A program made the translations under genes and the position numbers. This document shows, piece by piece, positions 10,944 through 40,684 of a stretch of 43,353 nucleotides of DNA. Origin of the DNA: a virus. The notes under the pieces were generated by a model, which saw only the letters and a list, made by a program, of their open reading frames with translations, did not search any database and was not told the origin of the DNA. How positions within the stretch are numbered: the stretch's first letter is position 1; every line of letters starts with the position of its first letter. The stretch is taken from positions 1 through 43,353 of IMG/VR virus record IMGVR_UViG_3300048833_000778. The stretch is one strand, 5' to 3'.

Positions 10944-11014
10944 ACTCGTTGGCGGTCGGGTTGACATCCAATAGCATCGTCGCGAGGCTGTCCGCCTCCA
11001 ACGAGGGCGGCAAG

Positions 11015-18597: not shown

Positions 18598-18849
18598 ATG
18601 GGCCGAACGGATAAGCTCGCCGAAGCGTTCAAAGAATGTTCAGGTCCATTCCCATACCGCGACTTGAAACGGCTCCTTGAGGCGCTTGGATATGCCGACA
18701 TTACAAAGAATGCGGGCAGCTCGAGGCGCTTCTACAACAAGGGCATCGACGACCTAATCCTTTGCCATGAGCCCCATCCCGGCAAAGAGATACACCTATA
18801 TCTGGTAAAACAGATCAGAGACCAACTAAAGGAAAAGGGACTGATATGA
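18598..18849 (+). CDS. hicA: HicA-family toxin (mRNA interferase)
   Basis: This 83-residue protein has the small double-stranded-RNA-binding fold of HicA toxins: FPYRDLKRLLEALGYADI, a GSSRRFYN turn (residues 40-47), then LILCHEPHPGKEIHLYLVKQ and a C-terminal helix. HicA cuts mRNA to stop growth until HicB neutralises it. The catalytic His usually found in the GSH turn is a Ser here (position 42), as in some family branches that rely on the HEPHP region. It overlaps hicB by 4 bases (ATGA). Confidence 0.8.
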   Translation: MGRTDKLAEAFKECSGPFPYRDLKRLLEALGYADITKNAGSSRRFYNKGIDDLILCHEPHPGKEIHLYLVKQIRDQLKEKGLI

Positions 18850-19358
18850 AGACGGTGACGTACAAGGGATTTCAGGCCTCGGTTGAGTTCGAGGATGATG
18901 CCCTGTTTGTGCGAGTGCTTCACATTCCTGATCTCTTGGTTGCTCAGTGTGAGAGCGCAAAAGACGTTCAGGAGACGCTGAAGCGTCTCGTCGATGAGTA
19001 TTTAGAAACCTGCAATGAACTCGGCAGGGAGCCCAACAAACCATTCAGCGGCACTCTCAACGTGCGCATTGGGGCTGACCTGCATCGGCGAGCCGCAATG
19101 GCGGCCGCCGAACGCAAAGAGAGCATTAACGCGTGGATCGCAGAGGCCATCTCGCAACGAGTGGAATGCGATGACCTCACGGCTAGAATTGGCGGCAAGC
19201 TAGAGGACATTCAGCGAGATGCTGAAGTCGTACACATCGCTCGCGGGCATGTCTCTGAGGCGGTGGTAGTAGAGCGCCGCGTCGAGGTCGCGCAGGTCAA
19301 AAGCTTGCTGTATCCAGCAGATGACGAAAAGGCGTCGAGCTGGGGGAGATTCCACTGA
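18846..19358 (+). CDS. hicB: HicB-family antitoxin with long C-terminal extension
   Basis: Residues 1-62 form the degraded-RNase-H HicB domain (VTYKGFQASVEFEDDALFVR, EYLETCNELGREP). Residues 67-106 are a ribbon-helix-helix DNA-binding domain (FSGTLNVRIGADLHRRAAMA, SINAWIAEAI). A further 64 residues follow, ending in SSWGRFH, which usual HicB proteins of about 110 residues lack. The antitoxin blocks HicA and represses the operon. Since a SecB-like gene follows directly, the extension may be a chaperone-addiction tail that makes the antitoxin depend on that chaperone. Confidence 0.85.
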   Translation: MKTVTYKGFQASVEFEDDALFVRVLHIPDLLVAQCESAKDVQETLKRLVDEYLETCNELGREPNKPFSGTLNVRIGADLHRRAAMAAAERKESINAWIAEAISQRVECDDLTARIGGKLEDIQRDAEVVHIARGHVSEAVVVERRVEVAQVKSLLYPADDEKASSWGRFH

Positions 19359-22485: not shown

Positions 22486-22784
22486 GAGCACCCTGTGGAG
22501 GTGCCACACTCGGTGCAGACTTGGCAGTGACCTGCGATCTGCATTTTCATGCTGCCACAGTGGGTGCATGCGTCGCCGGTGAAGCCTTGGGACTTGGCGG
22601 CCTCACGCGTCATGGCTGGCTGTTCCGATATCGCTTCGGCGACGGCAGCGATTGAGCCATCCTCCCAAGCCTCAAGTAACTGCAGAGCTAAGACGCTTTC
22701 GCCCCGCCGATTGAGATAGGCGAGGATGACGTTGGCCGCGGCGATTGACCCTTGCTCGAAGCCCTTGTCGAAGTCGGTGCTCAT
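22482..22784 (-). CDS. Small phage protein with C-terminal zinc ribbon
   Basis: This 100-residue protein has a helical front and a C-terminal double C-x-x-C module (CTHCGSMKMQIAGHCQVCTE and CGTSTGCS), which resembles the zinc ribbon at the end of B12-dependent ribonucleotide reductases. It may bind a nucleic acid or another protein. The start overlaps the helicase stop by 4 bases (ATGA) and its stop overlaps the next start, so it is translated with its neighbours. Confidence 0.6.
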   Translation of the reverse strand: MSTDFDKGFEQGSIAAANVILAYLNRRGESVLALQLLEAWEDGSIAAVAEAISEQPAMTREAAKSQGFTGDACTHCGSMKMQIAGHCQVCTECGTSTGCS

Positions 22785-24403
22785 TCCGCCGCCTCCGCCC
22801 GCTCGAAGGTCCTGTTGACGATGTCAAAGTACTTGCCGTTCGGCTTGACCGAGATCGTCGCCGGCATGATCAGCTCGCCCCTGCGCTCGATCGCTTCGGC
22901 GGCCGTCTTTGGGAACGGGTTGCTGCCACCATGCAGAGACCACCACTGGCATGCGCGCTGCCGCGGCTGTCCCGTGTAGCCGAACGCCAACCACTCCCTG
23001 TATTCGGAGATCCCGGCGTAGTAGGTCACCCGAACGCTGTCAGGGCTGCCCAGCTTGCTCCAGGCGCCGAGGCTCCAGTCGACGACCGGCAGCATCTTCG
23101 GCGGCACGACTTCCGTCGACAGGATGCCGAGGTCGCCGTCGGCGCGCGCCTCATGCTTGGGCTTGTTCTCGACTGGCCACTCGTGCCCGCAGTCGGGGCA
23201 GACGTGGACATTGAGCGCCACCAGGTCATGGCAGTCCGGGCACTCCTTCGCCCGCACGCTATCGACTGCGACCTTGCCATCGTCGCCCTCGCCCTTATCC
23301 TTCTTGCCGCCAACAGCGACGGAGTCGACGGGACCATGCCGGGCAACGTTGCGCGCGAAGTCGAGGACGAGGCAGTTCTCCTTGCCCTCGCTCTTGCGCG
23401 TCCCGCGACCGACCATCTGAACGTAGAGCGAAGTCGAAAGCGTGGGCCGCAACATCGCGATCAGGTCGACGAGTGGCGCATCAAAACCGGTCGTGAAGAC
23501 GTTGGCGCCGGTCAGCACCTTGATCTGACCTGCCCGGTAGGCCCGAAAGATGCGGTCGCGTTCCGGGCCGGGCGTGTCCCCGGTCACGGTCTCTGCCGAG
23601 ATGCCACGGGCGCGGAAGGCGGATCGCACGGCGTGGGCATGATCTACGCCGGAGCAGAAGGCGAGCCAGGCGCGGCGGTTCTCGCCGAAGCGAATGATCT
23701 CGTCGACGGCCTCGACGGTGATCTGGTCGGCCGCAGTTTCGAGTTGCCCGGCATTGAACTCGCCGCGAGAGCGGGCTACCGCCGACACGTCGATCTGGGC
23801 GGCCGTGGCCTTGCTGATCAACGGCGACAGGTAGCCGCCGTCGATCCCGTCGCGGATGCCGAACGAGAACACCGTCTCATCGAACAGACGGCCGTCGCCA
23901 TCATCGAGGCGGCCGGTGCCCAGCCGGTATGGTGTGGCGGTGAACCCGACGACCCGTAGGTCGGGCACCGTGCGGCGCAGGCCTTCCAGCAGCTGCAGGT
24001 ACATCCCCTCGCCGGCGGACGGCACGAGGTGTGCCTCGTCTACCAGTACCAGGTGGCGCGGGCCGAGCGCGGCCGCCTTTCGGTAGACCGACTGCACTGA
24101 GGCGAATGTGATCGAGTGGTGGCTGTCGCGGCGACCGAGTCCGGCCGAATAGATGCCCATTGAGCCGCCGGGGTAGAGGTTCAGCAGAGCCTTGAAGTTC
24201 TGCTCGACCAGTTCCTTCACATGCACCAGCATCAGCACCCGCATGGTGGGAAAGTCAGTGCGGATGCGGCGCACTAGTTCGGCGATCACCATCGACTTGC
24301 CGGTGCCGGTCGCCATCTCGACGAGCGGGTTACCGCCGCCCTGCTCCCAGTAGGCATAGACGGCGTCGATGGCCGCCTGCTGATAGTCGCGAAGCTGAAT
24401 CAT
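22781..24403 (-). CDS. DEAH-box superfamily 2 helicase with zinc ribbon
   Basis: This 540-residue helicase starts MIQLRDYQQAAIDAVYAYWE, a Q-motif-like opening. It has Walker A ATGTGKS (residues 31-37), DEAH (122-125), VGFTATPYR (motif III) and the C-terminal LTGANVFTTGFDAP and QMVGRGTRKSEG motifs. A CPDC...CPDCGHEWP zinc ribbon follows at about residue 400. Such helicases in phages act in replication restart or strand opening. The true start is the ATG overlapping the gcrA stop (24403); an upstream frame exists but is a shadow. Confidence 0.9.
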   Translation of the reverse strand: MIQLRDYQQAAIDAVYAYWEQGGGNPLVEMATGTGKSMVIAELVRRIRTDFPTMRVLMLVHVKELVEQNFKALLNLYPGGSMGIYSAGLGRRDSHHSITFASVQSVYRKAAALGPRHLVLVDEAHLVPSAGEGMYLQLLEGLRRTVPDLRVVGFTATPYRLGTGRLDDGDGRLFDETVFSFGIRDGIDGGYLSPLISKATAAQIDVSAVARSRGEFNAGQLETAADQITVEAVDEIIRFGENRRAWLAFCSGVDHAHAVRSAFRARGISAETVTGDTPGPERDRIFRAYRAGQIKVLTGANVFTTGFDAPLVDLIAMLRPTLSTSLYVQMVGRGTRKSEGKENCLVLDFARNVARHGPVDSVAVGGKKDKGEGDDGKVAVDSVRAKECPDCHDLVALNVHVCPDCGHEWPVENKPKHEARADGDLGILSTEVVPPKMLPVVDWSLGAWSKLGSPDSVRVTYYAGISEYREWLAFGYTGQPRQRACQWWSLHGGSNPFPKTAAEAIERRGELIMPATISVKPNGKYFDIVNRTFERAEAAE

Positions 24404-25002
24404 GCTGTCGCCCTCGCAGTCGCGAGCTGGCGATGCTGCTCGCAATAGGGTGATCTGGCATCGGAGTGCAGGCCGCAGAACAGGATGGGCGCATCGCCGA
24501 TCGGCCACTTGCAGGTGTGCTCGTTGGTCTGCATCAACGTGATCGGCGTGGCGCCGACGATAGGCTCCCACGCCTGACTGCGCAGCAACTTCTGCCCTAC
24601 GGGATCGTCGACTCGGAGTGCGTTGAGAGCATCGACCGTGCTAGTGGCCTCCGGACGTTCCTTCCGAACGCGAGCGATCTTTAAGGCGAGCCCACCCCCG
24701 TTTGACGTACGAGCCTTCCGCGCCGCGTCGGCCACGCCCCGATGTTTGCCGGCGGCGCCGCGCCCACCAGTGGCCTTTGCGGCGCGGATAGCCGTCTCCT
24801 TGCGCCGGACCAGCTTGAGGCGCGCGACCTTGCCGATGACTGCGTTCCGGGTGACGTCCTCGCCGAGTGCGAGGGCGATCTCGGACGCCGATGAGCCTTC
24901 GAGCCACATCTTCTTGAGGGTCTCGGTCCGCGCTTCGGTCCAGTCGGCGTGATGGGGCGGGTTGGGCGCCTTGAGGCGCGCTGCTTCTGCTGCCCCGGTC
25001 AT
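24400..25002 (-). CDS. gcrA: GcrA-family cell-cycle regulator
   Basis: This 200-residue protein has the GcrA N-terminal helix-turn-helix (residues 20-62, WTEARTETLKKMWLEGSSAS, DVTRNAVIGKVARLKL) and the C-terminal Cys/His module (TCKWPIGDAP, ILFCGL, SPYCEQH) that contacts sigma70. Host GcrA recruits RNA polymerase to promoters with methylated GANTC sites. The middle is basic and disordered. It starts on the stop of the methyltransferase gene (TGATG), so the pair is translated together. A phage copy may redirect the host cell-cycle programme or activate phage promoters. Confidence 0.9.
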   Translation of the reverse strand: MTGAAEAARLKAPNPPHHADWTEARTETLKKMWLEGSSASEIALALGEDVTRNAVIGKVARLKLVRRKETAIRAAKATGGRGAAGKHRGVADAARKARTSNGGGLALKIARVRKERPEATSTVDALNALRVDDPVGQKLLRSQAWEPIVGATPITLMQTNEHTCKWPIGDAPILFCGLHSDARSPYCEQHRQLATARATA

Positions 25003-25901
25003 CACGCTGCCACTCCCTGCACGAGGTCAGTGCCGACGCGATCGGTCTCGGCAACCTTCAGGTTGCGCACGGCCTCCCTGAAATACTTCGGGCTTAGCTC
25101 GGTACCGAGGAAACGGCGACCGTGGCGAATGGCCTCGTAGCCTTCCGAACCGATGCCAGTGAATGGCGAATAGATGGTCTCGCCCGGATTAGACCAGAGC
25201 AGGATGCAGCGCCGGATGAGGTCCAGCGGCATCGGGCAGAGATGCTTTTCCTCGTCGGTCTTGCCGACATTGAGGACGTCGGTCTCGCGGGTGTTCATCC
25301 ACACCGGCGACGCCCACTCCTGCCATACCTCGAGCGGGAACTGCTCCGGGTTGTGGACGATCGGACTGGTATCCTCGATGCCGTCGGCCCATTTGCGAAA
25401 CACCACGATGTACTCGGGCATGCCGCCGCCACTGCGCGCGGCGTCCTCGCGAAAGTGCTTGTAGAGCAACCGGTCGGCCTTGGTCTTCTGCATCTCCTTT
25501 ACCGGGTCGCGCCACACCGTGATCAGCCGATGGAAGGTCCAGCCCTCCTCGACGTGGACGCGGATGCACTCCCCGGTGAAGTGGAACAGGCCGCGGTCCC
25601 CCTTCTCGGAAGAGTTGGAGTAGTAGACGAGGTCCTTGACGTGGATGCAGGTATTCCGGCCGGGCCGGGTGATGCGCAGCTTCTCCCGCACCAGGTGGCG
25701 GTAGGACGCGAAGAACTCGTCATGCGAGCCGACATTGCCCATGTCGCGCTCGCTCTCCGAGTAGATGTAGAGGGACGAGAACGGCGGGCTGTAGACGCTG
25801 AGGTCGACGCAGTTATCGGGCATCTGCGCGGTGAACTCGACGGTATCGGCGTTGAGGATGGTCCAGTCTTCACCGGACGCCTGATCGAGAACGTTGGTCA
25901 T
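25002..25901 (-). CDS. Beta-class DNA methyltransferase (N6-adenine or N4-cytosine)
   Basis: This 299-residue protein has motif IV VYSPPFSS (SPPF at 38-41) near the N-terminus and the AdoMet site YSPFTGIGSEGYEAIRHGRR plus LGTELSPKYF near the C-terminus (244-275). This order (IV first, I last) defines the beta class, which includes CcrM. SPPF is more usual in N4-cytosine enzymes, so the target base is open. The ATG overlaps the stop of the SNF2-type helicase gene (ATGA) and the gene is followed directly by gcrA. It may protect phage DNA or set methylation marks read by GcrA. Confidence 0.85.
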   Translation of the reverse strand: MTNVLDQASGEDWTILNADTVEFTAQMPDNCVDLSVYSPPFSSLYIYSESERDMGNVGSHDEFFASYRHLVREKLRITRPGRNTCIHVKDLVYYSNSSEKGDRGLFHFTGECIRVHVEEGWTFHRLITVWRDPVKEMQKTKADRLLYKHFREDAARSGGGMPEYIVVFRKWADGIEDTSPIVHNPEQFPLEVWQEWASPVWMNTRETDVLNVGKTDEEKHLCPMPLDLIRRCILLWSNPGETIYSPFTGIGSEGYEAIRHGRRFLGTELSPKYFREAVRNLKVAETDRVGTDLVQGVAA

Positions 25902-27301
25902 GCGAGCCACGCGGGAAGCCGCGCCTCCTTGGTCGGGGAATAGGTCTGCAGGATCTTCGAGGACTGGGCGGCGCGGGCCATCGCGGCTGCCATCTCGGAC
26001 TTCATGGCATCGTGGTCCCCGGCCTTGCGGTTGATCACGTGCCAGATCGCTTCCTCGGTATCGGCGCACACGACGTGCACGCGGACCGGCCGTTCCTGCC
26101 GGAAGCGCCAACTCCGGCGCACGGCCTGATAGAAGCTCTCATAGGAGAAGCTCAGGCCCATGAATGCCTGGCGGGCGCAGTGCTGCCAGTTGAGGCCAAA
26201 GCCTGCGATCGAGGGCTTGGTCAGCAGCACCTTGAACTGGCCAGTGGAGAAGCCCTGAAGGCGGTCCTCCTTCTTCTCGATCTGCATCGAGCCGCGGACC
26301 TCGATCGCCTGTGGCAGCACCGCCGCCACGGCGTCGGCCTCGTAGTCGGTCTCGACCCAGATCACCCAAGGCTCATTCGGCTCGGCCGAGACGATCTCGG
26401 CGAGTTTCGCGGCCCGCGCGGCCGTGGTCAGGCGCTTTTCCTTGTGCACCGAGGTGGCGGACAGGTCGGGCATGCGGAACAGGTGGATTTGCCCATCGGC
26501 CTCCTCGCCGGCGTCGACGGCACGATCGGCGGAGACGAGGTGGCGCTGCAGTTCGAGCGGCGGCATGGCAAAGCCGTCGTCGCTGAAGCCCAGGTCGGAC
26601 GGCTTCGAGACGCACCGCGCCCAGCTGGCCACCCAATCCCAGAACGGGCGGATCGCCGGCCGCTTCAGCCGGTACCGGCCCATCTGGCTCAGGTCAGCGA
26701 TGAACCAGCGAGAGAGCATTTCCGGCGCTTCCATCACGCCGAGGAAAGCCGAGTGTTGGCCCAGCTCGGTGTGATCGTTCGGCGCCGGCGTCGCGGTAGC
26801 GGCGAGCCGATACGGGGTGCGAGCGAAGGCCTCGATCAGTCGGCGCGTCGTCTTGCCGGTGAAGCTTTTGAGGATCGAGCTCTCGTCGAGGATGACACCA
26901 CCCCACAGGCCCGGGTTGACCTGCTCGAGTCGCTCGTAGTTCGTCACCACGATGCGCGGATCGACGGGCGCCGAGCCTGTTCGGCTCTGGCTCGCCTCGA
27001 TGCCGAACTTTTCGGCCTCGGCGATGTGCTGAGCGCCGACGGCGAGGGGAGCCAGCATCAGCACCGGCTTGTTGGTGCGGCGCACGACCTCGTCACCCCA
27101 GGCGAGAGCCATCCCGGTTTTGCCGAGGCCGGTGTCATAGAACAGGCCAGCCGAACCGGCGCGTAGCGCGAACGCAGTGCCGTGCCGCTGGTGATCGAAC
27201 ATCCAGCCCGGTAGCTTGCCTTCGTCGACATCGGCGAAGCCGTTCGGTTCGAACGCGACGCGCTTTTCAGCGATCAGTGAGCGGTAGCTCTGGAGGGTCA
27301 T
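25898..27301 (-). CDS. SNF2-type helicase/translocase
   Basis: This 467-residue protein is an SF2 ATPase: FDHQRHGTAFALRAGSAGLF, Walker A DTGLGKT (56-62), VILDESSILKS (DESS at 139-142), TATPAPNDHTE, and the C-terminal VLLTKPSIAGFGLNWQHC and AVRRSWRFRQERPV motifs. It has neither nuclease nor methylase domain. It lies directly before the methyltransferase gene with an ATGA overlap, so the two may act together. Related helicases are common in phage replication modules. Confidence 0.85.
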   Translation of the reverse strand: MTLQSYRSLIAEKRVAFEPNGFADVDEGKLPGWMFDHQRHGTAFALRAGSAGLFYDTGLGKTGMALAWGDEVVRRTNKPVLMLAPLAVGAQHIAEAEKFGIEASQSRTGSAPVDPRIVVTNYERLEQVNPGLWGGVILDESSILKSFTGKTTRRLIEAFARTPYRLAATATPAPNDHTELGQHSAFLGVMEAPEMLSRWFIADLSQMGRYRLKRPAIRPFWDWVASWARCVSKPSDLGFSDDGFAMPPLELQRHLVSADRAVDAGEEADGQIHLFRMPDLSATSVHKEKRLTTAARAAKLAEIVSAEPNEPWVIWVETDYEADAVAAVLPQAIEVRGSMQIEKKEDRLQGFSTGQFKVLLTKPSIAGFGLNWQHCARQAFMGLSFSYESFYQAVRRSWRFRQERPVRVHVVCADTEEAIWHVINRKAGDHDAMKSEMAAAMARAAQSSKILQTYSPTKEARLPAWLA

Positions 27302-28452
27302 GCCGCCCTCCCGATGGTCACTGGCGACGCTTCACGGAGCGATTTCAGCGCAAATGCCTTGTCGGCGCCGCGCATCGGCATGAGCACCGCCCACGACTTC
27401 TGACCGGCCACACTCAGCTTTATCGGCGCTCCATCCGAACTGAATGCGAGGCGTAGATTCTCCGCGCCCATGCGGGTGAGCAGGCTCCGCATTTTTTTGG
27501 TGTTGAAGCTGATCATCCGAGCGGCGCCGGCATTGGTCGTCGCCACTTCCCCGAGTGTCTCGTGGATGAGGGCGTCGCCATCGGTGCCGGTCAGCACGGC
27601 GGCCGAAGCGCTGAAGGTCAGCGTGGCGCACGGTCCGCTTTGAGCCGACAAGGCCTCGGCGCGCTTCATCGCCATCAACAGCCGCGACTTGTCCAACGTG
27701 ATGCCGGCGCTGCTGTCGTCGAGTTTTGGAGTGACGCGCTTCCAGTCAGGAAACGTGCCCTCGATCAGCTTCGTCGTCAGCGTGACAGAGGGCCAGTTGA
27801 AGCGAACTTTCTCCACGTCGAAGAGGGTGACGCTGTCGGCCTCCGGCATGGCCAAGAGAGCTTTGATGGCGTCGCGCGGAAGGATCTTGCCCTGCAACGC
27901 CTCGACGCCGGCAGCGAAGGGAGCCACCGACATTTGGTGACCGTTTGTGGCCACAAGGCACGGCTGATCTTCGAAGTCCTTCGAAATGCAGATGCCGTTA
28001 AGGTAGTAGCGCGTTTCTTCGGTCGAGATGGAGGGCGCAACGAACTTCACTGCCGTTCCGAAGCCCGAGTCCACAAGAGGAATGATCCCCGCCTCGGTCG
28101 CCTTCGCTCCAAGCAGACTTGGCCAGCCATCAGGGTCGGTCACGGGCAGGTCGGCCGCTCCGCCCGGATAGGCGATCTTCGCCCACTCCTTGCCCGCGGT
28201 GATGGTGACGGTGGCATCACCGTCGATCAGGTCGACGAGCCGCTGAAGACGACGGTAGTCGACGGTGGTCTTGCCTGTCGCCGCCGTAGCGGCCAGGCGG
28301 ACGGCAATCTCCTGATCGAGATTGGTGCCCTTGAGCGTGGCGCCATCGATCAGAACGCAGGCTAGCACCGGATAGGTGTTCCGGCGTTCAATGACGTGGC
28401 CGACGAGGCGCAGGGCGCTTCGCAACTGGCGGGCAGTGGTTTCGAGCTTCAT
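27298..28452 (-). CDS. DNA polymerase III beta-subunit-like sliding clamp
   Basis: This 384-residue protein has the clamp pattern over three repeats: N-terminal HVIERRNTYPVLACVLIDG, the middle TEETRYYLNGICISKD with LVATNGHQMSVAPF, the PDWKRVTPKL turn, and the C-terminal VLMPMR end. The length agrees with bacterial DnaN (about 370). It would ring DNA and hold a polymerase. No replicative polymerase is visible in the window, so this clamp must work with the host Pol III or another enzyme, and could hold it on phage DNA. Translation is coupled to both neighbours by 4-base overlaps. Confidence 0.85.
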   Translation of the reverse strand: MKLETTARQLRSALRLVGHVIERRNTYPVLACVLIDGATLKGTNLDQEIAVRLAATAATGKTTVDYRRLQRLVDLIDGDATVTITAGKEWAKIAYPGGAADLPVTDPDGWPSLLGAKATEAGIIPLVDSGFGTAVKFVAPSISTEETRYYLNGICISKDFEDQPCLVATNGHQMSVAPFAAGVEALQGKILPRDAIKALLAMPEADSVTLFDVEKVRFNWPSVTLTTKLIEGTFPDWKRVTPKLDDSSAGITLDKSRLLMAMKRAEALSAQSGPCATLTFSASAAVLTGTDGDALIHETLGEVATTNAGAARMISFNTKKMRSLLTRMGAENLRLAFSSDGAPIKLSVAGQKSWAVLMPMRGADKAFALKSLREASPVTIGRAA

Positions 28453-29396
28453 GGCGAAACGCTCCGTTCAGCGCCGTCGACCCAGGCGCCGCCGCGGGCG
28501 AGCTCATAGGTCACGGTTTCATTGGCGGGGTCGGCGTCGACCTGCTCACCGGGCACGAGGCCAGGCAGGAACAGGTGTTGCGGGCAGCCCAAGGCCTGCT
28601 CGTCGATGCCGATGGGGCGGTTGTGCCGGACGCACTGCCAGCCGCCACCCGCGACGGGCGACGAGTGGAGGCAGGTCCGGCAGTTGCGCAGCGCGAACTC
28701 GCCGGCGTGGCAGAGATCGAAGGCAGGACAGAACTTGCACTCGAACCAGTTCGGATCGTCGCTGACCCGCGCGGCCGGCTGGTTGGCGTCGCGGATACGC
28801 TCGGCCTTGGCGAGCAGCGTCATGGCGTGCACCGCGTCGTGCTCAATGCGCTCGGAATGGAGCTCGTCGGTGTCCTTGTTCCGCACGAGGTAGTAGGATC
28901 GCGTCAGGCCGAGCAAGTGCATGCCGATCTGCAGCGCCGGGATGCGGTCGGGCTTGCCGATGGCGAGGCCATGCTTGACGATCTGCGCAAAAGCCTTTGC
29001 CGGCTGCTGGTCGGCATAGAGTAAGTGCACCGTCTTCGGCGCCTCGAGCAGCCCCTCGACGGTGCCGGTGATCTTCTGCCGGTAGTGGCCATCAGCCGCG
29101 ATGACGTCGATGGCCATGAAGGTCTTGGGGTCGACGCGCTGCACCTTGACGCCGGCGTCGGACAGGCTGGCGACCAGCTCATCCATGTTCTGCTGGCGAG
29201 CGAGGTTCGATCGGACGATGCTGCCCGGGAACCGCTTCGGGTCGCGCGCCCAGCGGAACGCGTACCATCCCTGGCGCTCGCAGTTCGAGGCGAGCAGTCG
29301 AGCAGTCAGCCGCTGCGGCAGACGCACATCCTGGTGCTTCTCGTAGTGCGCGTTGATCGCGTCGATGGTGGGGTGAGGAACGGAGAGCTCGACCAT
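28449..29396 (-). CDS. Cas4-like PD-(D/E)XK nuclease
   Basis: This 315-residue protein has four Cys that could hold an Fe-S cluster: one near residue 39 (LLASNCERQGWYAFRWARD) and three in NWFECKFCPAFDLCH (about 230-240). Between them lie nuclease core strands (FMAIDVIAADGHYRQKITGT, VEGLLEAPKTVHLLYAD). This is the layout of Cas4/AddB-type exonucleases of phages. The C-terminal 75 residues add CRTCLHSS and WQCVRH, a further metal site. The start overlaps the stop of the CtrA-like gene (TGATG). A role in recombination or host DNA degradation is likely. Confidence 0.7.
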   Translation of the reverse strand: MVELSVPHPTIDAINAHYEKHQDVRLPQRLTARLLASNCERQGWYAFRWARDPKRFPGSIVRSNLARQQNMDELVASLSDAGVKVQRVDPKTFMAIDVIAADGHYRQKITGTVEGLLEAPKTVHLLYADQQPAKAFAQIVKHGLAIGKPDRIPALQIGMHLLGLTRSYYLVRNKDTDELHSERIEHDAVHAMTLLAKAERIRDANQPAARVSDDPNWFECKFCPAFDLCHAGEFALRNCRTCLHSSPVAGGGWQCVRHNRPIGIDEQALGCPQHLFLPGLVPGEQVDADPANETVTYELARGGAWVDGAERSVSP

Positions 29397-29833
29397 CACG
29401 CCGCCTCTGCATCCCAGATGCGCCGGTGCTCGTCCTCGACGAGCTTGGCGATGACCTGTTCGGGCGTACCGCCGCGGACCATGATGATCTCGTCGAGCAG
29501 CTTGGTATCGACGCCGACGGTGATGCCAGTGTGCTCCGGCGCCATGGCGTAGAGCGGATTGCGGCAATAGCCCCTGCCCCAGACCGTCTCGATGGCGACG
29601 CGATGCACCCCGAGCTTCGCCCGCAGCTTGGTAACGAAAACGTCGAGGATCTTGATGTCCGGCTCGTCGCGGCCGCCGTAAGCCGCGCTGAGCAGAAATT
29701 CTCGGGTGGCAACGCGTTCGTGAGACAGGATCGTCCGCAGGATAATGTGCTCCTGCTTGGTGACATGCGCGTTGAGCGGCTCGCCATCGACGAACAGCAT
29801 GTTGCGGAAGTCGACGCTGATGAGGATGGTCAT
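29396..29833 (-). CDS. CtrA-like DNA-binding domain protein without receiver
   Basis: This 145-residue protein has an OmpR/PhoB winged helix (residues about 13-92) whose core DEPDIKILDVFVTKLRAKL and IETVWGRGY is almost that of CtrA, the master regulator of the alphaproteobacterial cell cycle. The CtrA receiver domain with its phosphorylated Asp is absent, so it cannot be switched off by dephosphorylation. The last 50 residues (TKLLDEIIMVRGGTPEQVIA) are helical and unlike CtrA. It could bind CtrA sites at the origin and promoters without control. The start is ATG 29833, overlapping the stop of the zinc-finger gene; a GTG one codon earlier is also possible. Confidence 0.8.
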   Translation of the reverse strand: MTILISVDFRNMLFVDGEPLNAHVTKQEHIILRTILSHERVATREFLLSAAYGGRDEPDIKILDVFVTKLRAKLGVHRVAIETVWGRGYCRNPLYAMAPEHTGITVGVDTKLLDEIIMVRGGTPEQVIAKLVEDEHRRIWDAEAA

Positions 29834-29988
29834 CACGCACCGCCATGCACGTCAGCGACGTGCTTCTTCAGCCCTTTGGCACCGCGCAGCTTCTTCTGGC
29901 AGTGCGGGCACTCTTCCTGAGCGCCGGACCGGGACCGCTTGTTGGTGCGAGGTTGGTTGCCTCGTCGCTCCTTCACGATCTCCAGCAT
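29833..29988 (-). CDS. Small C2H2 zinc-finger protein, 51 residues
   Basis: This short gene has a basic N-terminus (RRGNQPRTNKRSRS) and a single finger CPHC-x12-HVADVH (residues 27-48: C-x2-C, 12 residues, H-x4-H). It starts on the stop of the previous gene (TGATG) and ends on the start of the CtrA-like gene. Prokaryotic C2H2 fingers such as Ros/MucR in alphaproteobacteria bind DNA, but those have a larger fold. It may be a small DNA- or RNA-binding helper. Confidence 0.6.
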   Translation of the reverse strand: MLEIVKERRGNQPRTNKRSRSGAQEECPHCQKKLRGAKGLKKHVADVHGGA

Positions 29989-30916: not shown

Positions 30917-31753
30917 TTAGGCTGCCTTCTTGTGCTGGGCCGCAATCGGCGCGGAGACCTTGGTCTCTTCGGCCGGCGGTTCGTATCCGGGGAAATAGGG
31001 AGCGAGCGCGGCAAAGCCCTTGCCGCGGTCGAAGCGCACTGTCGCCGGCATGTTGTACCGGTTCTTGGCGATGAAGGCCGGGCGCCCGATGGCGTGGATC
31101 AGGACCACGGAACTGCCATCGGCGATGGCACGCTCCTTATTAAAGCCCTGCTCCTCCTTCTTCACGTTGACCGGCGACTTGAGCAGGAAGATCGCATCCA
31201 TCTCGCGCTCGATCGCGCCGACGGAGTGCTTGTGGAGGTCGATCTCGTAGCGATCGTAGCTGACCGTCTCGGGATCATCGAAACGCTCGACTGTCGAGTG
31301 CGCGATCAGGATGATCGTCAGGCCACGATCCTTGCGGAGCGCGTTCAGCCCGTCGATGATCTCCTGCCAGATACGCTTGGCGTAGACGTAGCCCTTGCCA
31401 TAGCCGAAGTCTTCGATATTGGCCTTGGCATTGCCCTTGTCGTCGCCGCGGGCGCATGTCTCGGCGAACACCAGGCGTTCGAGTTCGGTCACCGAGTCGA
31501 CCACGACGGTCTTGAACGCATGGTCCTCGGTGTAGAGGACGCCAAGCGCCTCCATGAGCTGGCCGAAGCTCTCGATCTTGCCGAAGCTGTCGAGTTCAAG
31601 ATCGCCGGGCGTGCCCTCCTCGATCTGCAGGAACACCGCGTCCGGGAATTCGGCCGCGAGGGAAGTCTTCCCGATGCCGGGAGGGCCGTACATCAGGATG
31701 CGGGGCGGCTGGTCGGCGCGCACACGCTTGAGGTCAGACAGCGACAGGGCCAT
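30917..31753 (-). CDS. RecA-fold phage ATPase (AAA_24 type)
   Basis: This 278-residue protein has Walker A MYGPPGIGKTSLAAEF (GPPGIGKT at 23-30), Walker B KTVVVDSVTELERL and LTIILIAHSTVERF. The C-terminus is disordered (PPAEETKVSAPIAAQHKKAA). GGAG lies 6 bases before ATG 31753, while the frame runs open beyond it as a shadow of rusA. The partner of the DUF669 protein, it probably loads on DNA for annealing or recombination. It overlaps the rusA end by 20 bases. Confidence 0.8.
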   Translation of the reverse strand: MALSLSDLKRVRADQPPRILMYGPPGIGKTSLAAEFPDAVFLQIEEGTPGDLELDSFGKIESFGQLMEALGVLYTEDHAFKTVVVDSVTELERLVFAETCARGDDKGNAKANIEDFGYGKGYVYAKRIWQEIIDGLNALRKDRGLTIILIAHSTVERFDDPETVSYDRYEIDLHKHSVGAIEREMDAIFLLKSPVNVKKEEQGFNKERAIADGSSVVLIHAIGRPAFIAKNRYNMPATVRFDRGKGFAALAPYFPGYEPPAEETKVSAPIAAQHKKAA

Positions 31754-32264
31754 CGTCTTCTCCGTTGGGTTGGGGTGCCGTGAGATACCAGCCGCCGCGG
31801 GCACCATCGTGCGAGGGCCGGAAGTCCACCGTCACGGGCGAGGCCGGACGGATTTCGATGTGAGCCAGTCCGTTGACGGGAGGCAGCTTGCCGACGAGGA
31901 AGCCCGTTACCAGGCTGTCGTCGCAAATGAGTTTGGCGTCGACGATGGCGTCGAAGATCGCCTTCACGCGGTTGTCGAGATCGGCGCGGTCGCCGGACAT
32001 CTCGATGTTGAGCCGGATCAGTACATGACCGGCGATCGGCGCGAGTTGCTGCAGGCGGATCGAAGTCAGCGCATGCGCGCGCCAGTCGTCGTAGACCCGG
32101 GTCTTGACCCGGCCCTTGCCCGGCACGTTGCGGAACAGTTCATTGACCGAAGGCGGCACCGGCAGTTGGAAGGTGACGGCGACCGGTGCATCAGCACCGA
32201 TCGCAGCCCCCTGCCCTGAACGCCTTGCCCGGCTTTCAGATATCCGTGCCGCCGTCGCGGTCAT
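31734..32264 (-). CDS. rusA: RusA-family Holliday junction resolvase
   Basis: This 176-residue protein has the RusA pattern: FQLPVPPSVNELFRN, then the metal-binding GDRADLDNRVKAIFDAIVDA (Asp92, 95, 97) and KLICDDSLVTGF with Asp115-116. RusA cuts Holliday junctions and resolves branched phage DNA before packaging. About 25 residues before the domain are extra and disordered. The start overlaps the stop of the previous gene (ATGA). Confidence 0.85.
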   Translation of the reverse strand: MTATAARISESRARRSGQGAAIGADAPVAVTFQLPVPPSVNELFRNVPGKGRVKTRVYDDWRAHALTSIRLQQLAPIAGHVLIRLNIEMSGDRADLDNRVKAIFDAIVDAKLICDDSLVTGFLVGKLPPVNGLAHIEIRPASPVTVDFRPSHDGARGGWYLTAPQPNGEDDGPVAV

Positions 32265-32962: not shown

Positions 32963-33187
32963 TCAGGCCGCCGTTCGCTCGACGCGAGCGGCGAGATTGG
33001 CTTCATAGAGAAGCTGTGGCGTGAGTTCGAACCCATCGACCGCGCAAAGCTCGATCAGGATCGGCCAATGGCGGTCGGGGATGCCGATCGACTTCCACTT
33101 GTAGACGGCATCACGGCCAAGGCCGTCTGTCGCTGCAGCGACTACATTCACGCCTCCTGCTCTATGGATGATGTCTTCGACGGTCAT
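32963..33187 (-). CDS. Cro-like small HTH regulator (carph-isopro type)
   Basis: This 74-residue protein has a compact helix-turn-helix: MTVEDIIHRAGGVNVVAAAT, DGLGRDAVYKWKSIGIPDRH, WPILIELCAVDG. The pattern is that of the small phage regulators placed opposite the CI repressor. GGAG lies 6 bases before ATG 33187, whereas the ATG at 33211 lies within the promoter, so the short form is chosen. It is the first gene of the leftward early operon and would repress CI or its own promoter. Confidence 0.75.
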   Translation of the reverse strand: MTVEDIIHRAGGVNVVAAATDGLGRDAVYKWKSIGIPDRHWPILIELCAVDGFELTPQLLYEANLAARVERTAA

Positions 33188-33210
33188 CTCAATCTCCGTT
33201 TCACAGCCCA

Positions 33211-33239
33211 TACGTACTGGACTTAAATTCCAGTTTCAA
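33211..33239 (-). promoter_or_regulatory. Early leftward promoter with operator in its spacer
   Basis: On the minus strand TTGAAA (33239-33234) is followed by exactly 17 bases and then TACGTA (33216-33211). The 17-base spacer (33217-33233) is the palindrome CTGGACTTAAATTCCAG, which contains TGGA-N7-TCCA. A repressor bound there would block polymerase. The -10 match is weak. Confidence 0.6.
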
Positions 33240-33289
33240 GGGGGCGAAATTCCAGATCGGAAAAAAACTCCGACCTTATGCTCAATTGC

Positions 33290-34003
33290 ATGAAGCAGTG
33301 GTGGGAACGGCTGCAGGAAGCGATCGACGACGCGGGCTGGAACAAGGCCGAGCTAGCGCGTCGCAGTCACCTGAGCTACGACAGCATCAACAAGTACCTG
33401 CGCGGCGAAGTCGACCAACCTCGCGGCAAGGTCATGGGCACTCTCGCTGCCACCATAGGGCGCAGCGTTCTATGGCTGCGCGATGGCATCGACGACGGCG
33501 CTGCCGCGGCGGAGATCACGAGTTCGGCCGGCGGCCTGGTACCTGCAACCGTCATCGGGCGCGTCCAGGCCGGCGCATGGCTCGAGGTTGACGAGTTCGA
33601 CCAATCCGAGTTGGAGCACATCGCCCTTCCCCCAGATCCTCGCTTCCCGAACGCCCAGTTGCTCGTGTTCGACGTCTCTGGCGACTCGATGAACGATCTC
33701 AAGCCGCACCCCATCCTGCCCGGGTCGCGGGTTGTCGGCGTTTCGTATGAGGATGTGGCCAGCCAGGTGCCTTTGCGGGATGGGCTGGTAGTCGTGGTAG
33801 AGCGCTCCCGCGATGGCGGACACTCCCGGGAGCTATCGGTTAAGCAGGTCGAGTTTTACGGCGACCGGATCGAGTTTCACCCGCGGAGCACGAACCCGAA
33901 GCATAAGCCGATCATCGTTGAACACGACGCCTGGGCAGATGGCGGCGTCACGGTCCGGGTCGCCGCCCTGGTTCGTCAGACAATCAACGACATGCCGTTC
34001 TAG
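33290..34003 (+). CDS. CI-type phage repressor, HTH plus S24 peptidase
   Basis: The 237-residue form from ATG 33290 has an N-terminal helix-turn-helix (WNKAELARRSHLSYDSINKY) and a LexA-like S24 peptidase domain with SGDSMND (Ser133) and LSVKQVEF (Lys185). The self-cleavage site is probably Ala94-Gly95 in VQAGAW. After DNA damage RecA would trigger cleavage and induce the phage. An ATG at 33278 is four codons earlier. No ribosome site is seen for either, but a -10-like TATGCT (33277-33282) ends 7 bases before ATG 33290, so the message may be leaderless as for lambda cI. Confidence 0.9.
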   Translation: MKQWWERLQEAIDDAGWNKAELARRSHLSYDSINKYLRGEVDQPRGKVMGTLAATIGRSVLWLRDGIDDGAAAAEITSSAGGLVPATVIGRVQAGAWLEVDEFDQSELEHIALPPDPRFPNAQLLVFDVSGDSMNDLKPHPILPGSRVVGVSYEDVASQVPLRDGLVVVVERSRDGGHSRELSVKQVEFYGDRIEFHPRSTNPKHKPIIVEHDAWADGGVTVRVAALVRQTINDMPF

Positions 34004-34221: not shown

Positions 34222-34291
34222 CTCCACTCCGTTCGCGTTATGTTCTCATTAACACCTGACAGCCGACCGGAGTCGAGTCGAATCAGCGATA

Positions 34292-34346
34292 TGGAAATAA
34301 AATCCATTTCGCTGTTGACGTCTCACGTATCTGGATTTAATTTCCA
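34292..34346 (+). promoter_or_regulatory. Second CI-controlled promoter with two operators
   Basis: TTGACG (34315-34320), 17 bases, TAATTT (34338-34343) make a good promoter for the rightward genes. Two 15-base palindromes of the form TGGA-N7-TCCA flank it: 34292-34306 (N7 = AATAAAA) and 34332-34346 (N7 = TTTAATT), the second covering the -10. They match the operator at 33218-33232, so one repressor probably controls both promoters. Confidence 0.7.
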
Positions 34347-34375
34347 ACTCATCGAACGCACCGATGGGGATCGAA

Positions 34376-35070: not shown

Positions 35071-35411
35071 TGGCTGAGGTCAAGCACACTCCCGGCCCAT
35101 GGTCGGTCGAAGACCCGATGGGTGCCGATGTTGGCCTTTGGATCGTCCAGAGCGGGCTTGAACCGCGTCAGTGGTCCTGCATCGCGATAGTCACTGACGA
35201 CGAGAACGGGCAGGCCCGCGACGAGGGCGGGCGGTTCATTGGTCGCCTGGAGCAGGAGGCCAACGCCCGTTTGATAGCCGCCGCACCCGCCATGCTCGAA
35301 ATGCTGCGGGAATGCCGCGCAACCTTCGCTTTCGCGGCAGGCGAGGGGGATGATCCCGCCAACGACCTTGTCGCTGAGATCGATGCCGTGCTGGCGAAGG
35401 CGGTGGCGTGA
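35070..35411 (+). CDS. Phage protein of the HTPGPW...ANARLIAAAP family
   Basis: This 113-residue protein starts on the stop of the previous gene (TGATG). It opens with the phrase HTPGPWSVEDP and has EANARLIAAAPAMLEMLREC, two blocks that mark a widespread family of small phage proteins of unknown function. Its C-terminus is acidic and helical. No catalytic residues can be named. Confidence 0.6.
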   Translation: MAEVKHTPGPWSVEDPMGADVGLWIVQSGLEPRQWSCIAIVTDDENGQARDEGGRFIGRLEQEANARLIAAAPAMLEMLRECRATFAFAAGEGDDPANDLVAEIDAVLAKAVA

Positions 35412-35635
35412 TGAACGCCGCCCTACTCCGCCAAACGCACGCTGCCCTGCTGCTTGCGACCGGCGCACTCGTCGCCGTCGTGGAATCTGGCCGCGCCAAG
35501 GAAACCGACAAGGTCACGTTCACTGGCGCGTTCGCGCAGCTCGGCGAGGTGACGATCAAGGATGCGCTCGACGCTGCCGATCACGCCATCGGCCTCGGCA
35601 ATTCTGCTCTCAGCGGTACGTCGGAGGATCTGTGA
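35411..35635 (+). CDS. Hypothetical small protein
   Basis: This 74-residue protein starts on the stop of the previous gene and ends on the start of the methyltransferase gene (TGATG on both sides). The first part is a hydrophobic helix (THAALLLATGALVAVVESGR), perhaps amphipathic rather than membrane-bound. A short acidic C-terminus follows. No family is recognised. Confidence 0.5.
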   Translation: MNAALLRQTHAALLLATGALVAVVESGRAKETDKVTFTGAFAQLGEVTIKDALDAADHAIGLGNSALSGTSEDL

Positions 35636-37623
35636 TGAACAAGCACTTCCCGCAGCTCTGGGCAGCCGATGAGCCGTCCATCGACACCGATGAAATCATC
35701 GTCGACAGCTTTGCGGGTGGCGGCGGTGCTTCTACAGGCATCGAGCTTGCCCTCGGCCGCTCGCCGGACTTCGCGATCAATCACGACCCGGAAGCGCTGG
35801 CGCTGCATGCGGCGAACCATCCGCAGACGGTCCACCTCGCAAACAACATCTACAAGGTCGATCCGGATGACGTCGGCCGGGGCCGCCCCGTCGGACTGCT
35901 CTGGGCTTCCCCCGATTGCAAGCACTTCTCCAAGGCCAAGGGCGGAACGCCGGTGAAGCGCGAAATTCGCGACCTCGCCTGGGTCGTGGTCATGTGGGCG
36001 GAACGTCGCCGGCCGCGCGTGATCATCCTCGAGAACGTCGAGGAGTTTCAGACCTGGGGCCCGCTCATCGAGACCGCTAAGGGCCTGATGCCCGATCCGG
36101 AGCGGAAGGGCGAGACCTTCAACCAGTGGATAGCTGCGCTCAAGAAGCTCGGCTACAAGGTCGAGTGGAAGGAATTGCGGGCCTGCGATTACGGCGCACC
36201 GACGACGCGCAAGCGCCTGTTCCTGATCGCCCGCTGCGACGGCAAGAAGATTGCATGGCCAGAGCCGACGCATGGATCGCCAACCGATGCCGACGTGATC
36301 GCTGGGCGCAAGCTGCCGTGGGTCACTGCCGCCGAGATCATCGACTGGTCGGAGCCCTGCCCCTCGATCTTCGACACGTCCGAAGAGATCATGGAAAAGT
36401 TCGGCGTTCGCGCTGTCCGTCCGCTCGCAGAGAACACGCTGGCTCGCATCCACAAGGGGATCGATCGGTACGTCATCAAGGCGGCGAAGCCCTTCGTGGT
36501 TCGCACGGACCACTCGTCAGCCAAGACGGCAGGCGTTCACGATATTGATGCGCCAACGCGAACAGTCACCGGCGCTGGCGGCCTCGCCGTCGTCGCTCCG
36601 CACCTGACCAAGTTCCGAAACGGTGCAGTCGGCTCGGCTCTAGACGAGCCCACGCCTACCGTCACCGCCAACAGCTTCATCCAGCGACCAGGCGGCGCCG
36701 CACCGCTTGGAATCGTGGCAGCTCACCTCTCGGCAGCGCAACATGGCGGTAGCCATCGCTCTGCCGACGAACCACACCGGACCATCGCCGCAAGCGACAA
36801 GGATCAGAACCAGGTCGTTGCCGCGCACCTGATGACGATGCGGAATGCAGGTAAGCCGTTCAACGACGCGGATAAGCCGACGCATACCGTCACCGCTGGC
36901 GGTGCTGGCTTATCGCTGGTAGCGGCCTCGATGGTGCAGACCGGCTACGGCGAGCGCGAGGGGCAGGAGCCGCGCGCACTAGACCCGGGCGCGCCACTGG
37001 GCACGGTCGTCGCTGGCGGGGTGAAGCATGCTGCCGTCGCGGCCTTCCTCGCCCAGCACAACAACGACCAGAAGCCGTCAGGTGGGAGCTACCCGAAGCC
37101 CGGCCGTCCCGTCACCGATCCGCTATCCACCGTGACCGCAACAGGAAGTCAGCAGGCCGTAATATCTGCCGGGCTGATGAACATGAAGGGCGAAGATCGC
37201 GCGACCTGGCCCATCGACGGAGGTACACCAACCCAGACCGCTGGCGGGACGCATATCGCCGAGGTCCGCGCCTTCCTGCTGAAGTACTACGGCAACGAGG
37301 AGGACGGCCATAGGCTCGACAAACCGGCCGGCACCGTGACCACACGCGATCGCTTCGGCCTCGTGACCATCGAGGGTGAGGAGTATCAGATCACCGACAT
37401 CGGGATGCGGATGCTGACACCTCGCGAGCTGTTCCGGGCGCAGGGCTTCCCGGCCGGGTATCAGATCGAGGTCGGGCGCGGCCCGGATGGCCAATCCGTG
37501 GCGCTCACCAAGACGGCTCAGGTTCGGATGTGCGGGAACTCCGTTTGTCCGCCGATTGCTGCTGCACTCGTTGCGGCCAACTGCTCAGACCTGGCGCTGA
37601 CGCCGAGGATGGCTGCGGAATGA
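35635..37623 (+). CDS. C5-cytosine DNA methyltransferase with eight tandem repeats
   Basis: This 662-residue protein has the C5-methylase motifs: I VDSFAGGGGAS (23-33), IV SPDCKHFS with the catalytic Cys95, VI ILENVEEF (131-138), VIII TTRKRLFLIAR (190-200), IX MRMLTPRELFRAQGFP (591-606) and X QVRMCGNSVCPP (629-640). Between VIII and IX, where the target-recognition domain lies, residues 286-579 hold eight imperfect repeats of 34-42 residues with a core like AHL...D.PT.TVTA......VVA. The protein is longer than usual (about 330-450) because of them. It likely protects phage DNA from restriction, perhaps at several sites. It is the last gene of the rightward early operon. Confidence 0.9.
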   Translation: MNKHFPQLWAADEPSIDTDEIIVDSFAGGGGASTGIELALGRSPDFAINHDPEALALHAANHPQTVHLANNIYKVDPDDVGRGRPVGLLWASPDCKHFSKAKGGTPVKREIRDLAWVVVMWAERRRPRVIILENVEEFQTWGPLIETAKGLMPDPERKGETFNQWIAALKKLGYKVEWKELRACDYGAPTTRKRLFLIARCDGKKIAWPEPTHGSPTDADVIAGRKLPWVTAAEIIDWSEPCPSIFDTSEEIMEKFGVRAVRPLAENTLARIHKGIDRYVIKAAKPFVVRTDHSSAKTAGVHDIDAPTRTVTGAGGLAVVAPHLTKFRNGAVGSALDEPTPTVTANSFIQRPGGAAPLGIVAAHLSAAQHGGSHRSADEPHRTIAASDKDQNQVVAAHLMTMRNAGKPFNDADKPTHTVTAGGAGLSLVAASMVQTGYGEREGQEPRALDPGAPLGTVVAGGVKHAAVAAFLAQHNNDQKPSGGSYPKPGRPVTDPLSTVTATGSQQAVISAGLMNMKGEDRATWPIDGGTPTQTAGGTHIAEVRAFLLKYYGNEEDGHRLDKPAGTVTTRDRFGLVTIEGEEYQITDIGMRMLTPRELFRAQGFPAGYQIEVGRGPDGQSVALTKTAQVRMCGNSVCPPIAAALVAANCSDLALTPRMAAE

Positions 37624-37882: not shown

Positions 37883-38026
37883 ATGAGCACCGCCCGCAAG
37901 GTCGCGCCCGCTGCTCCGCTTGAGCCCGAACTCGAGGCGATCATCGTCGCCCTTGCCAAGGAGGCGGCCCGGCGCGACCATGCCCGGCAAATCACCCAGC
38001 CAAGCGCCACAGCCACAACGCAATGA
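37883..38026 (+). CDS. Small protein upstream of the serine recombinase
   Basis: This 47-residue protein (MSTARKVAPAAPLEPELEAI, then a short helix LAKEAARRDHARQ) overlaps the recombinase start by 4 bases (ATGA). Similar short genes precede serine recombinases in several alphaproteobacterial elements, so it may be a partner or only a translational leader. No DNA-binding fold is evident. Confidence 0.5.
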   Translation: MSTARKVAPAAPLEPELEAIIVALAKEAARRDHARQITQPSATATTQ

Positions 38027-39705
38027 CGCGCGCCGCCATCTACGCCCGGTTCAGCTCCGACCTGCAGCGGGACCGTTCGATCGAAGATCAGATCGAGGTC
38101 TGCCGCAGCTATGCGGAGCGGATGCATTTCGACGTGGTCGAGGTGTACGCCGACCGGGCAAAGTCGGGCGCCAGCATGCACGGCCGGGATGGCATCCAAC
38201 GCATGATCGCCGAGGGGCGCGAGCGGGTCTTCGACGTCGTCATCGCCGAAACGCTGAGCCGCCTCGGCCGCGACGAAGGAGATCGGGCCGAGATCCGAAA
38301 GCGCCTGACCTTCGCTGGCGTGAAGATCATGACGCCCTCGGATGGCGAGGTCACCCGCCTCACTGACGGCATCAAGGCCATCATCGACGCCCAGTACCTC
38401 GAAGACCTTAAGCTCATGATCCGCCGCGGCATGGCGGGCGTAACGCGTGACGGACGGCACGCGGGCGGCCGGGCGTATGGCTATCGTCCTGTACCCGGAA
38501 AGCCTGGGGAGCTGGAAATCGTCGAGGCCGAGGCGGATATCATCCGCCGTATCTTCCGCGAGTTCGCGGCCGGCGAATCCGCGCGCGCGATCTGCATCCG
38601 GCTGAACGCCGAGCGCCTTTCGGCGCCGCGTGGCGACCACTGGTCAGACAATGCCCTGAACGGAAACCGCTCGCGCGGCCACGGCATCCTGATCAACCCG
38701 ATCTATGGCGGGACGCTGGTCTGGAACCGGACACGCTTCATCAAAGACCCGGACACCGGCCGCCGGGTTTCGAGGCTGAACCCGGAGCGTGAATGGCAGA
38801 GCGCCCCTGCCCCGCACCTGGCTATTGTCGACGCTGACACGATCGCGGCCGTTCAGGCTCGCTTGCGCCCCTATACACGGCAAACGGCGCACCAGGCGCG
38901 ACGGCCGAAGACGCTTCTATCGGGACTGCTCAAATGCGGTTGCTGCGGAGCCGGGCTGTCGATCAAGGATCGTCGTGGCGGCCGGGTGCGCCTGCACTGC
39001 GCCGCGGCACGTCAAGGCGCCTGCGCAAACGCCACGCCGGTTTATCTCGATACAATCGAACCTGTGGTGCTGGAGGGCCTCAAGGCACGGCTACGCGACA
39101 AGCGCGCTATCTCGCTCTACCTCTCAACCTACAATGCCGAGCGCAGGGCGGTTGCTGCTGACGCCGTGAACCGTCGCGCCGGCATTGAGCGCAGACTGTC
39201 CGCCGCGCAACGCGAGCTTGATCGCGTGATCAACCTCACCGTGAAGGGGATCATCTCGGAAGGTGAAGCAGCCGGCCAACTGCCAGCGTTGCGAAACGAA
39301 AAAGCCACTCTTGAGGCGGAGCTGTCCACCATCGCCGAAACGCCGAAGGTGGTGGAGCTTCACCCAACCGCGATATCGTCCTACCTGCGCACCGTCGACG
39401 AACTCGAAACGGCGCTGGCCGCCGGTGGGGATGCAACTGAGCACCCTGCCTCGACGCCGATCCGGTCGCTCATTGATCGTGTTGTTGTAACCCCCGCAGG
39501 TCTCGAACCGGCGTTCATCAAGGTCCAAGGGAGGCTCGCCGCGCTTGTCGGCGAGGGGGTGTTTCAGGCTCGAATGGGGGTAATCTCGGGTAGCGCTCCT
39601 CCGCTACCACCTTACCCCCCGACGAAGTTCCGGAAGGTGCCAGGAAGCGCGCGAGATCGCCGACGATCTCTATGCGTGGCGTTGTCCGCTGTGGGTCCGG
39701 GGTGA
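38023..39705 (+). CDS. Large serine recombinase, phage integrase
   Basis: This 560-residue protein has the resolvase catalytic domain: YARFSSDLQ with Ser11, SIEDQIEVC, RDGIQRMIAEG, VIAETLSRLGRDEGD. The recombinase domain follows (GGRAYGYRPVPG, GHGILINPIYGGTLVWNRTR), then a zinc ribbon (LKCGCCGAGLSIKDR...C...C) and a coiled coil (about 390-450). It would integrate and excise the phage. The last 40 or so residues (after GRLAALVGEGVF) look unlike normal C-termini and run through the reverse of the next recombinase gene, so the end may be altered by the junction with foreign DNA. Confidence 0.9.
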   Translation: MTRAAIYARFSSDLQRDRSIEDQIEVCRSYAERMHFDVVEVYADRAKSGASMHGRDGIQRMIAEGRERVFDVVIAETLSRLGRDEGDRAEIRKRLTFAGVKIMTPSDGEVTRLTDGIKAIIDAQYLEDLKLMIRRGMAGVTRDGRHAGGRAYGYRPVPGKPGELEIVEAEADIIRRIFREFAAGESARAICIRLNAERLSAPRGDHWSDNALNGNRSRGHGILINPIYGGTLVWNRTRFIKDPDTGRRVSRLNPEREWQSAPAPHLAIVDADTIAAVQARLRPYTRQTAHQARRPKTLLSGLLKCGCCGAGLSIKDRRGGRVRLHCAAARQGACANATPVYLDTIEPVVLEGLKARLRDKRAISLYLSTYNAERRAVAADAVNRRAGIERRLSAAQRELDRVINLTVKGIISEGEAAGQLPALRNEKATLEAELSTIAETPKVVELHPTAISSYLRTVDELETALAAGGDATEHPASTPIRSLIDRVVVTPAGLEPAFIKVQGRLAALVGEGVFQARMGVISGSAPPLPPYPPTKFRKVPGSARDRRRSLCVALSAVGPG

Positions 39706-40670: not shown

Positions 40671-40684
40671 CGGTGGACACGCGG

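Follow-up and report, generated by a model that had tools for sequence, protein, structure and literature searches.

The linear IMG/VR virus record IMGVR_UViG_3300048833_000778 (43,353 bases, here called the window in its entirety) belongs to a temperate phage of alphaproteobacteria. Its early operon for replication and recombination encodes a CtrA-type DNA-binding protein that lacks the receiver domain and a protein of the GcrA family. Judging from sequence comparisons, the probability that this operon recruited two proteins that mimic cell-cycle transcription factors of the host is about 0.5. The CtrA-type/GcrA pair recurs in other phages, in some of which the two genes are directly coupled. 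The original prediction had read these two regulators, together with a methyltransferase identified as CcrM, as a single three-part device. All three genes are found on one strand as predicted (frames 29396-29836, 25002-25901 and 24400-25005, all minus), with a DnaN-like sliding clamp gene between the regulators (27298-28452), and the co-occurrence of a phage-borne receiver-less CtrA-type domain and GcrA in one operon is borne out and extends to other phages; the methyltransferase is not CcrM.

The receiver-less CtrA-type protein and its viral family

The CtrA-type gene (29396..29833, minus strand, open frame to 29836) encodes a protein of 145 amino acids that consists of an OmpR/PhoB-type winged helix, approximately residues 5-91, and a C-terminal two-helix extension. 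A hidden Markov model (HMM) search started with this product identifies Trans_reg_C (E 1e-12) and, as the best NCBIfam model, CtrA with 57.6 bits, the next model scoring 28 bits, in agreement with the predicted CtrA-like domain. The CtrA signature YGGxDEPxxKIxDVF...IETVWGRGY is present, and 16 of the 24 residues around the recognition helix are the same as in a true CtrA. A tree that includes 28 further OmpR-type regulators, almost all from six alphaproteobacterial genomes, places the domain with CtrA and other phage proteins and apart from those regulators (82/89 support); the nearest true CtrA domain shows approximately 51% identity. The alignment comprises 73 columns, and over this length the approximately unbiased (AU) test does not reject a forced grouping with the other OmpR-type regulators (p 0.135). 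By its sequence, then, this protein is a receiver-less OmpR-type winged helix that is closest to CtrA. The winged helix, recognition helix and wing are features in common with host CtrA, e.g., from Caulobacter or Sinorhizobium, whereas the receiver domain is absent, the winged helix starting already at residue 5, and with it the phosphorylatable Asp51. CtrA is normally governed by the CckA-ChpT phosphorelay; without a receiver, the phage protein would therefore be beyond this control.

AlphaFold2 predicts a high-confidence winged helix, which matches OmpR/PhoB effector domains, followed by a disordered linker and two helices (residues 110-120 and 124-144). The C-terminal extension, a strand with these two helices, looks like a ribbon-helix-helix dimerisation module in the predicted model, because the lengths of the strand and helices fit that layout and a relative yields a weak match to CcdA. 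Pfam does not recognise the extension as ribbon-helix-helix, the CcdA match (E 0.11, in that one relative) being the only one. The extension is shared with the proteins annotated as ‘CtrA’ in the Roseobacter phages RDJL Phi1, RDJL Phi2 and RDJL6, which are likewise receiver-less winged helices of about 150 amino acids encoded in a replication/exonuclease cluster; however, these proteins are only 31-35% identical to that of the window and have other gene neighbours, and the RDJL Phi1 and Phi2 records contain no GcrA match.

An alignment-based scan detects the CtrA-type domain in no fewer than 214 viral contigs; most of the encoding frames are short and lack a receiver. Single-sequence scans of viral records with the CtrA-type, GcrA and clamp proteins of the window gave no match. 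Among the 80 contigs that were retained, the frames are mostly 120-220 codons long with a short C-tail, many of the fully read ones have an N-terminal stretch resembling a coiled coil, and several CtrA-type genes occur in tandem. Because short receiver-less frames with other modules are found across the viral family, the loss of the receiver is no quirk of the window protein: as far as these sequences indicate, the phage proteins generally carry a different N- or C-terminal module in its place.

Several further observations concern this family. Tandem CtrA-type pairs, with overlapping frames, combine a strong and a diverged copy (loci L209, L211, L213, L215, L221, L222 and others). In seven loci (L186, L198, L200, L204, L205, L212 and L220), a beta-class methylase directly follows the CtrA-type gene, at about 10.0-11.0 kb of each locus (1-1.8 kb in L186); an FDPPY motif was read in five of the seven, and the three that were scanned all score far under the CcrM cut-off. 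A genome scan with the CtrA-type query retrieved only full-length CtrA-like proteins of Acetobacter, which retain the receiver (L003:9608-10393 and similar loci L004-L022). Inspection of L003 by eye suggests that the phosphorylation-site aspartate is replaced (AILHLQQPD vs LLDLNLPD), so that this protein might be a phosphorylation-independent cellular paralog of CtrA.

The GcrA-family protein and its pairing with the CtrA-type gene

The second regulator (24400..25005, minus strand, 201 amino acids) contains a DNA-binding domain (residues 21-72), a linker and a sigma70-interacting domain (155-195). An HMM search confirms its predicted identity, with a match to PF07750 of 106.7 bits (E 1.9e-30, cut-off 26.9 bits); the DNA-binding domain aligns to the structures 7ye1 and 5yiu and the sigma-interacting domain to 5yix. 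The motifs of both are conserved, namely the DNA-binding helix TRNAVIGKVxRL and the sigma-interacting CKWPIGD...FCG...YC..H. The NCBIfam GcrA equivalog model gives 88 bits against a cut-off of 280, and the protein is therefore a member of the GcrA family rather than a cellular orthologue. On this sequence evidence, it retains the two functional domains of the GcrA family. Binding of GcrA to DNA is enhanced by N6-methyladenine marks in GANTC, and GcrA binds sigma70 (PMC3667746, PMC7403470); given that both domains are retained, the phage protein should recruit the host RNA polymerase. GcrA is common in phages (263 viral contigs) and known from phage phiCbK (PMC3556154) and phiLM21-like prophages (PMC12429752). 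The phiCbK-like gp222 and the phiLM21-like prophage proteins belong to the same family and are also encoded by alphaproteobacterial phages, but they occupy another position, and no receiver-less CtrA has been reported alongside.

The genomic contexts point to an association of the two regulators. An OmpR-type domain passes the Pfam cut-off in 14 of the 80 GcrA records from phages (10/50 and 4/30), one of the 14 being a full CtrA with a receiver, compared with one of 50 control records selected by the sliding clamp, and that record also carries GcrA. At the level of loci, with a profile that left out GcrA-linked members other than the window, a CtrA-type gene is present in 12 of 80 GcrA loci (64 of which are non-redundant after short ones were dropped) against 1/80 clamp loci; conversely, GcrA is over the cut-off in 13 of 80 CtrA-type records. 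In five loci, the stop codon of the CtrA-type gene overlaps the start of gcrA, as ATGA in L043, L062, L064 and L080 (for L064, this is taken from a gap equal to that in L062 rather than from a printed junction) and as GTGA in L110. Since L062 and L064 are related and the others are mutually unrelated, these represent four lineages. In L043, the Snf2 helicase and methyltransferase genes lie downstream of the pair, so that the gene set is the same as in the window. No description of a widespread receiver-less phage CtrA family recurrently paired with GcrA was found in the searchable literature.

Two side observations touch on such loci. Immediately after gcrA in L043 (L043:10558-10620), there is a frame starting with NWPFAPLEPHAYRVIIADPPW that resembles an MT-A70-type adenine methylase, which yields the order CtrA-type gene, gcrA, possible adenine methylase. 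The viral contig L069 encodes a full-length CtrA with a receiver (L069:6121-7092) 3.3 kb from its GcrA gene; the stretch may be host sequence flanking a prophage.

The methyltransferase, the operon and GANTC sites

The methyltransferase (25002..25901, minus strand, 299 amino acids) shows the beta-class motif order, with SPPF at residues 38-41 and the S-adenosylmethionine-binding motif SPFTGIGSE at 245-253. This much of the predicted ‘CcrM layout’ stands; the other sequence features of CcrM that were compared are missing. With the CcrM model, whose cut-off is 830 bits, the protein scores 37.4 bits, the match being confined to profile residues 181-249, and the C-terminal DNA-binding domain (approximately 271-358 in CcrM) is absent from the 299-residue protein; the domain layout of CcrM and the role of this domain have been described (PMC6787082). 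Instead of a DPPY-type N6-adenine motif, the catalytic SPPF is invariant in six homologues. SPPF is the usual motif for N4-cytosine methylation.

Relatives of this enzyme occur in 403 phage records, most of them with hosts outside Alphaproteobacteria, including Mycobacterium, Flavobacterium, Gordonia, the cyanobacterium Synechococcus and others. A CcrM/GcrA circuit is not known from these hosts. The gene is paired with a Snf2-type helicase gene (25898..27301, minus strand), as in L043, L052, L075, L106 and L116, and in L079, L104, L221 and L227 the two are fused in one frame. The missing C-terminal domain, the SPPF motif, the spread of the family in phages of non-alphaproteobacterial hosts and the Snf2 pairing together rule out CcrM. 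A GANTC methylase of the phiLM21 type was rejected as well, as the window encodes no relative of phiLM21 p027. The GANTC methylases of phiLM21, phi2LM21 and phi3LM21 are similarly located near replication genes of related phages, but these sinorhizobial phage enzymes carry NPPY/F/W motifs (PMC5537653) in place of SPPF. They are unrelated to CcrM, and GANTC specificity therefore cannot be read from descent. The enzyme would most plausibly act apart from the regulators and jointly with the neighbouring Snf2 helicase on the DNA of the phage, either to modify it or to counter restriction.

The phage is temperate, as indicated by a CI-type repressor with an S24 peptidase domain (33278..34003, plus strand, divergent from the operon), a Cro-like gene (32963-33211, minus strand) that forms a switch with it, and a large serine recombinase (38023-39705, plus strand). 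Its terminase is 83% identical to that of Sinorhizobium phage phiLM21, with which part of the structural module is also shared; the host is alphaproteobacterial and probably rhizobial. Leftward from cro, the operon encodes RusA, a Sak4-like AAA ATPase (30917..31807, minus), a protein that we take, from its sequence by eye, to be DUF669-like, a 105-residue protein, a short zinc-finger-like frame and the CtrA-type protein, followed by a Cas4-domain exonuclease (phrog_1990, 28449..29396, minus), the sliding clamp (phrog_947, 27298..28452, minus), the Snf2 helicase, the methyltransferase, GcrA and a DEAD/ResIII helicase whose start overlaps gcrA (22781..24403, minus). The translational coupling noted in the original prediction is real inasmuch as the junctions are ATGA/TGATG overlaps; however, these link nine or more successive genes between 30305 and 22781, including the two helicases and the Cas4-type exonuclease. 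Coupling is generic to the whole operon and therefore singles out no regulators; with a methyltransferase that is not CcrM, it does not mark a three-part device.

GANTC is present in 37 copies in the phage, 0.22 of the expectation under a second-order model and the lowest ratio among the 16 palindromic pentamers. CcrM-bearing alphaproteobacteria likewise avoid GANTC (PMC3973325), so that this depletion marks the host as CcrM-bearing. Three head-to-tail GANTC sites (GAGTCGAGTCGAATC, 34270..34284) lie in the divergent intergenic region 34228-34363, a spacing matched in tightness by 29 of 20,000 random placements, and represent a candidate GcrA/CcrM-responsive site. Compared with random placement, GANTC triplets number 7 vs 1.7 in CtrA-type loci and 1 vs 1.7 in clamp loci. 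Downstream of the triple site, in the rightward operon, is a second methylase, of the C5-cytosine type (35350-37623, plus strand, 757 amino acids, phrog_116).

Elsewhere in the window, a HicB-like antitoxin (18846-19358) and a preceding small HicA-looking frame probably make up a toxin-antitoxin pair (18600-19358, plus strand); an IS3-type transposase adjoins two large serine recombinases, one on each strand (38023-41545); and an Acyltransferase-3 gene (10388-12106, plus strand), inserted in the oppositely oriented structural module, is likely surface-modification cargo.

Proposed action of the two regulators

What we infer for the dimerisation, DNA targets and host effect of the two regulators is the following. 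Having kept the CtrA winged helix and lost the receiver, the CtrA-type protein would be a phosphorylation-independent DNA-binder, in which dimerisation probably relies no longer on a receiver but on the C-terminal helical pair (in the window) or, in many relatives, on an N-terminal coiled coil; it would dimerise unaided and occupy CtrA-type sites at any phase of the cell cycle. There it may block the origin in the manner of phosphorylated CtrA (CtrA-P), or displace CtrA without exerting its effects. GcrA would bring the sigma70 polymerase to promoters whose GANTC sites carry the methyl marks of the host CcrM, either in the host genome or perhaps at the triple site at 34270. Between them, the two proteins would let the phage set the transcription state irrespective of the phase of the host cell cycle. 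In lytic deferment, the life of a phage is also tied to the CtrA circuit, but that phage carries sites for host CtrA (PMC9437464), whereas the window encodes a DNA-binder. More tentatively, with odds clearly below even, alphaproteobacterial phages might repeatedly carry a pair of proteins that overrides the cell cycle of their hosts: a module-dimerised, phosphorylation-independent CtrA-type binder, translationally coupled to a GcrA that reads CcrM marks, the window being a dispersed example.

Several points weigh against recruitment of the two proteins as cell-cycle mimics. Roughly 83% of the phages with one regulator have no copy of the other, in both directions, and in the window 4.4 kb and four other genes separate the two. 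The reverse enrichment (GcrA in 13/80 CtrA-type vs 4/50 records) is not significant (p 0.2); the clamp control is phylogenetically narrow, consisting mostly of related rhizobial phages, and nine control records with weak Trans_reg_C matches (16-19 bits) were scored as absent, the comparison becoming 10/50 in the control vs 15/80 if such matches are counted. Furthermore, the CtrA box TTAA-N7-TTAA is absent from the window, so that any CtrA-like action would involve host sites or another motif, and across 68 non-redundant CtrA-type loci it occurs 3 times vs 1.7 expected, with no clear excess; the CtrA-type DNA target is therefore presumptive.

Some of these observations would suit a rather unlikely alternative, namely that both proteins act on phage promoters only, in early/late timing or lysogeny, with borrowed recognition domains that have been retuned. 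The triple GANTC between divergent genes, the excess of such triplets in CtrA-type but not clamp loci, and the action of host CtrA on phage promoters (PMC9437464) are compatible with this possibility, but a single triplet in the phage is thin evidence, there is no CtrA box, and a recognition helix so close to that of host CtrA suggests sites of the host type. Independent acquisition of the two genes into a loose early operon, with no joint action, appears doubtful: although it would account for the many phages with a single regulator, the operon-wide coupling and the four intervening genes, it is at odds with the direct stop/start overlaps in four separate lineages and with the 12/80 vs 1/80 enrichment of loci. 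A similarly low likelihood attaches to a decoy, in which the receiver-less domain competes for CtrA sites without the effect of CtrA-P, freeing the origin and CtrA-repressed genes, and GcrA drives S-phase transcription. The loss of the receiver, the replication genes in the same operon, the promotion of S-phase genes by GcrA (PMC3667746) and the proposal that phiCbK GcrA raises expression of host replication genes (PMC3556154) all agree with such a role, but the predicted dimerisation modules would favour a competent DNA-binder equally able to block the origin. The three-part device itself, with the methylase supplying the marks read by GcrA, is now very improbable; the shared operon and the GANTC-specific methylases in relatives of this phage (PMC5537653) speak for it, and against it stand an enzyme without the C-terminal domain of CcrM or a DPPY/NPPY-type motif, its place in a Snf2-paired SPPF family that is spread among phages of non-alphaproteobacterial hosts, and the lack in the window of any protein related to the GANTC-specific enzyme of phiLM21.

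For GcrA, ‘CtrA’ and GANTC methylases alike, single phage examples were already known, as the original prediction had it. If a pair of receiver-less CtrA and GcrA is indeed recurrent and in places directly coupled, many phages would seize control of the alphaproteobacterial cell cycle at both ends of its circuit, bypassing the phosphorelay, and probes of CtrA sites that need no phosphorylation would become available. The CtrA-type and GcrA proteins are small and expressible, which makes the idea testable by simple expression in Caulobacter or Sinorhizobium, and the pair is a candidate takeover tool that is worth such a test.

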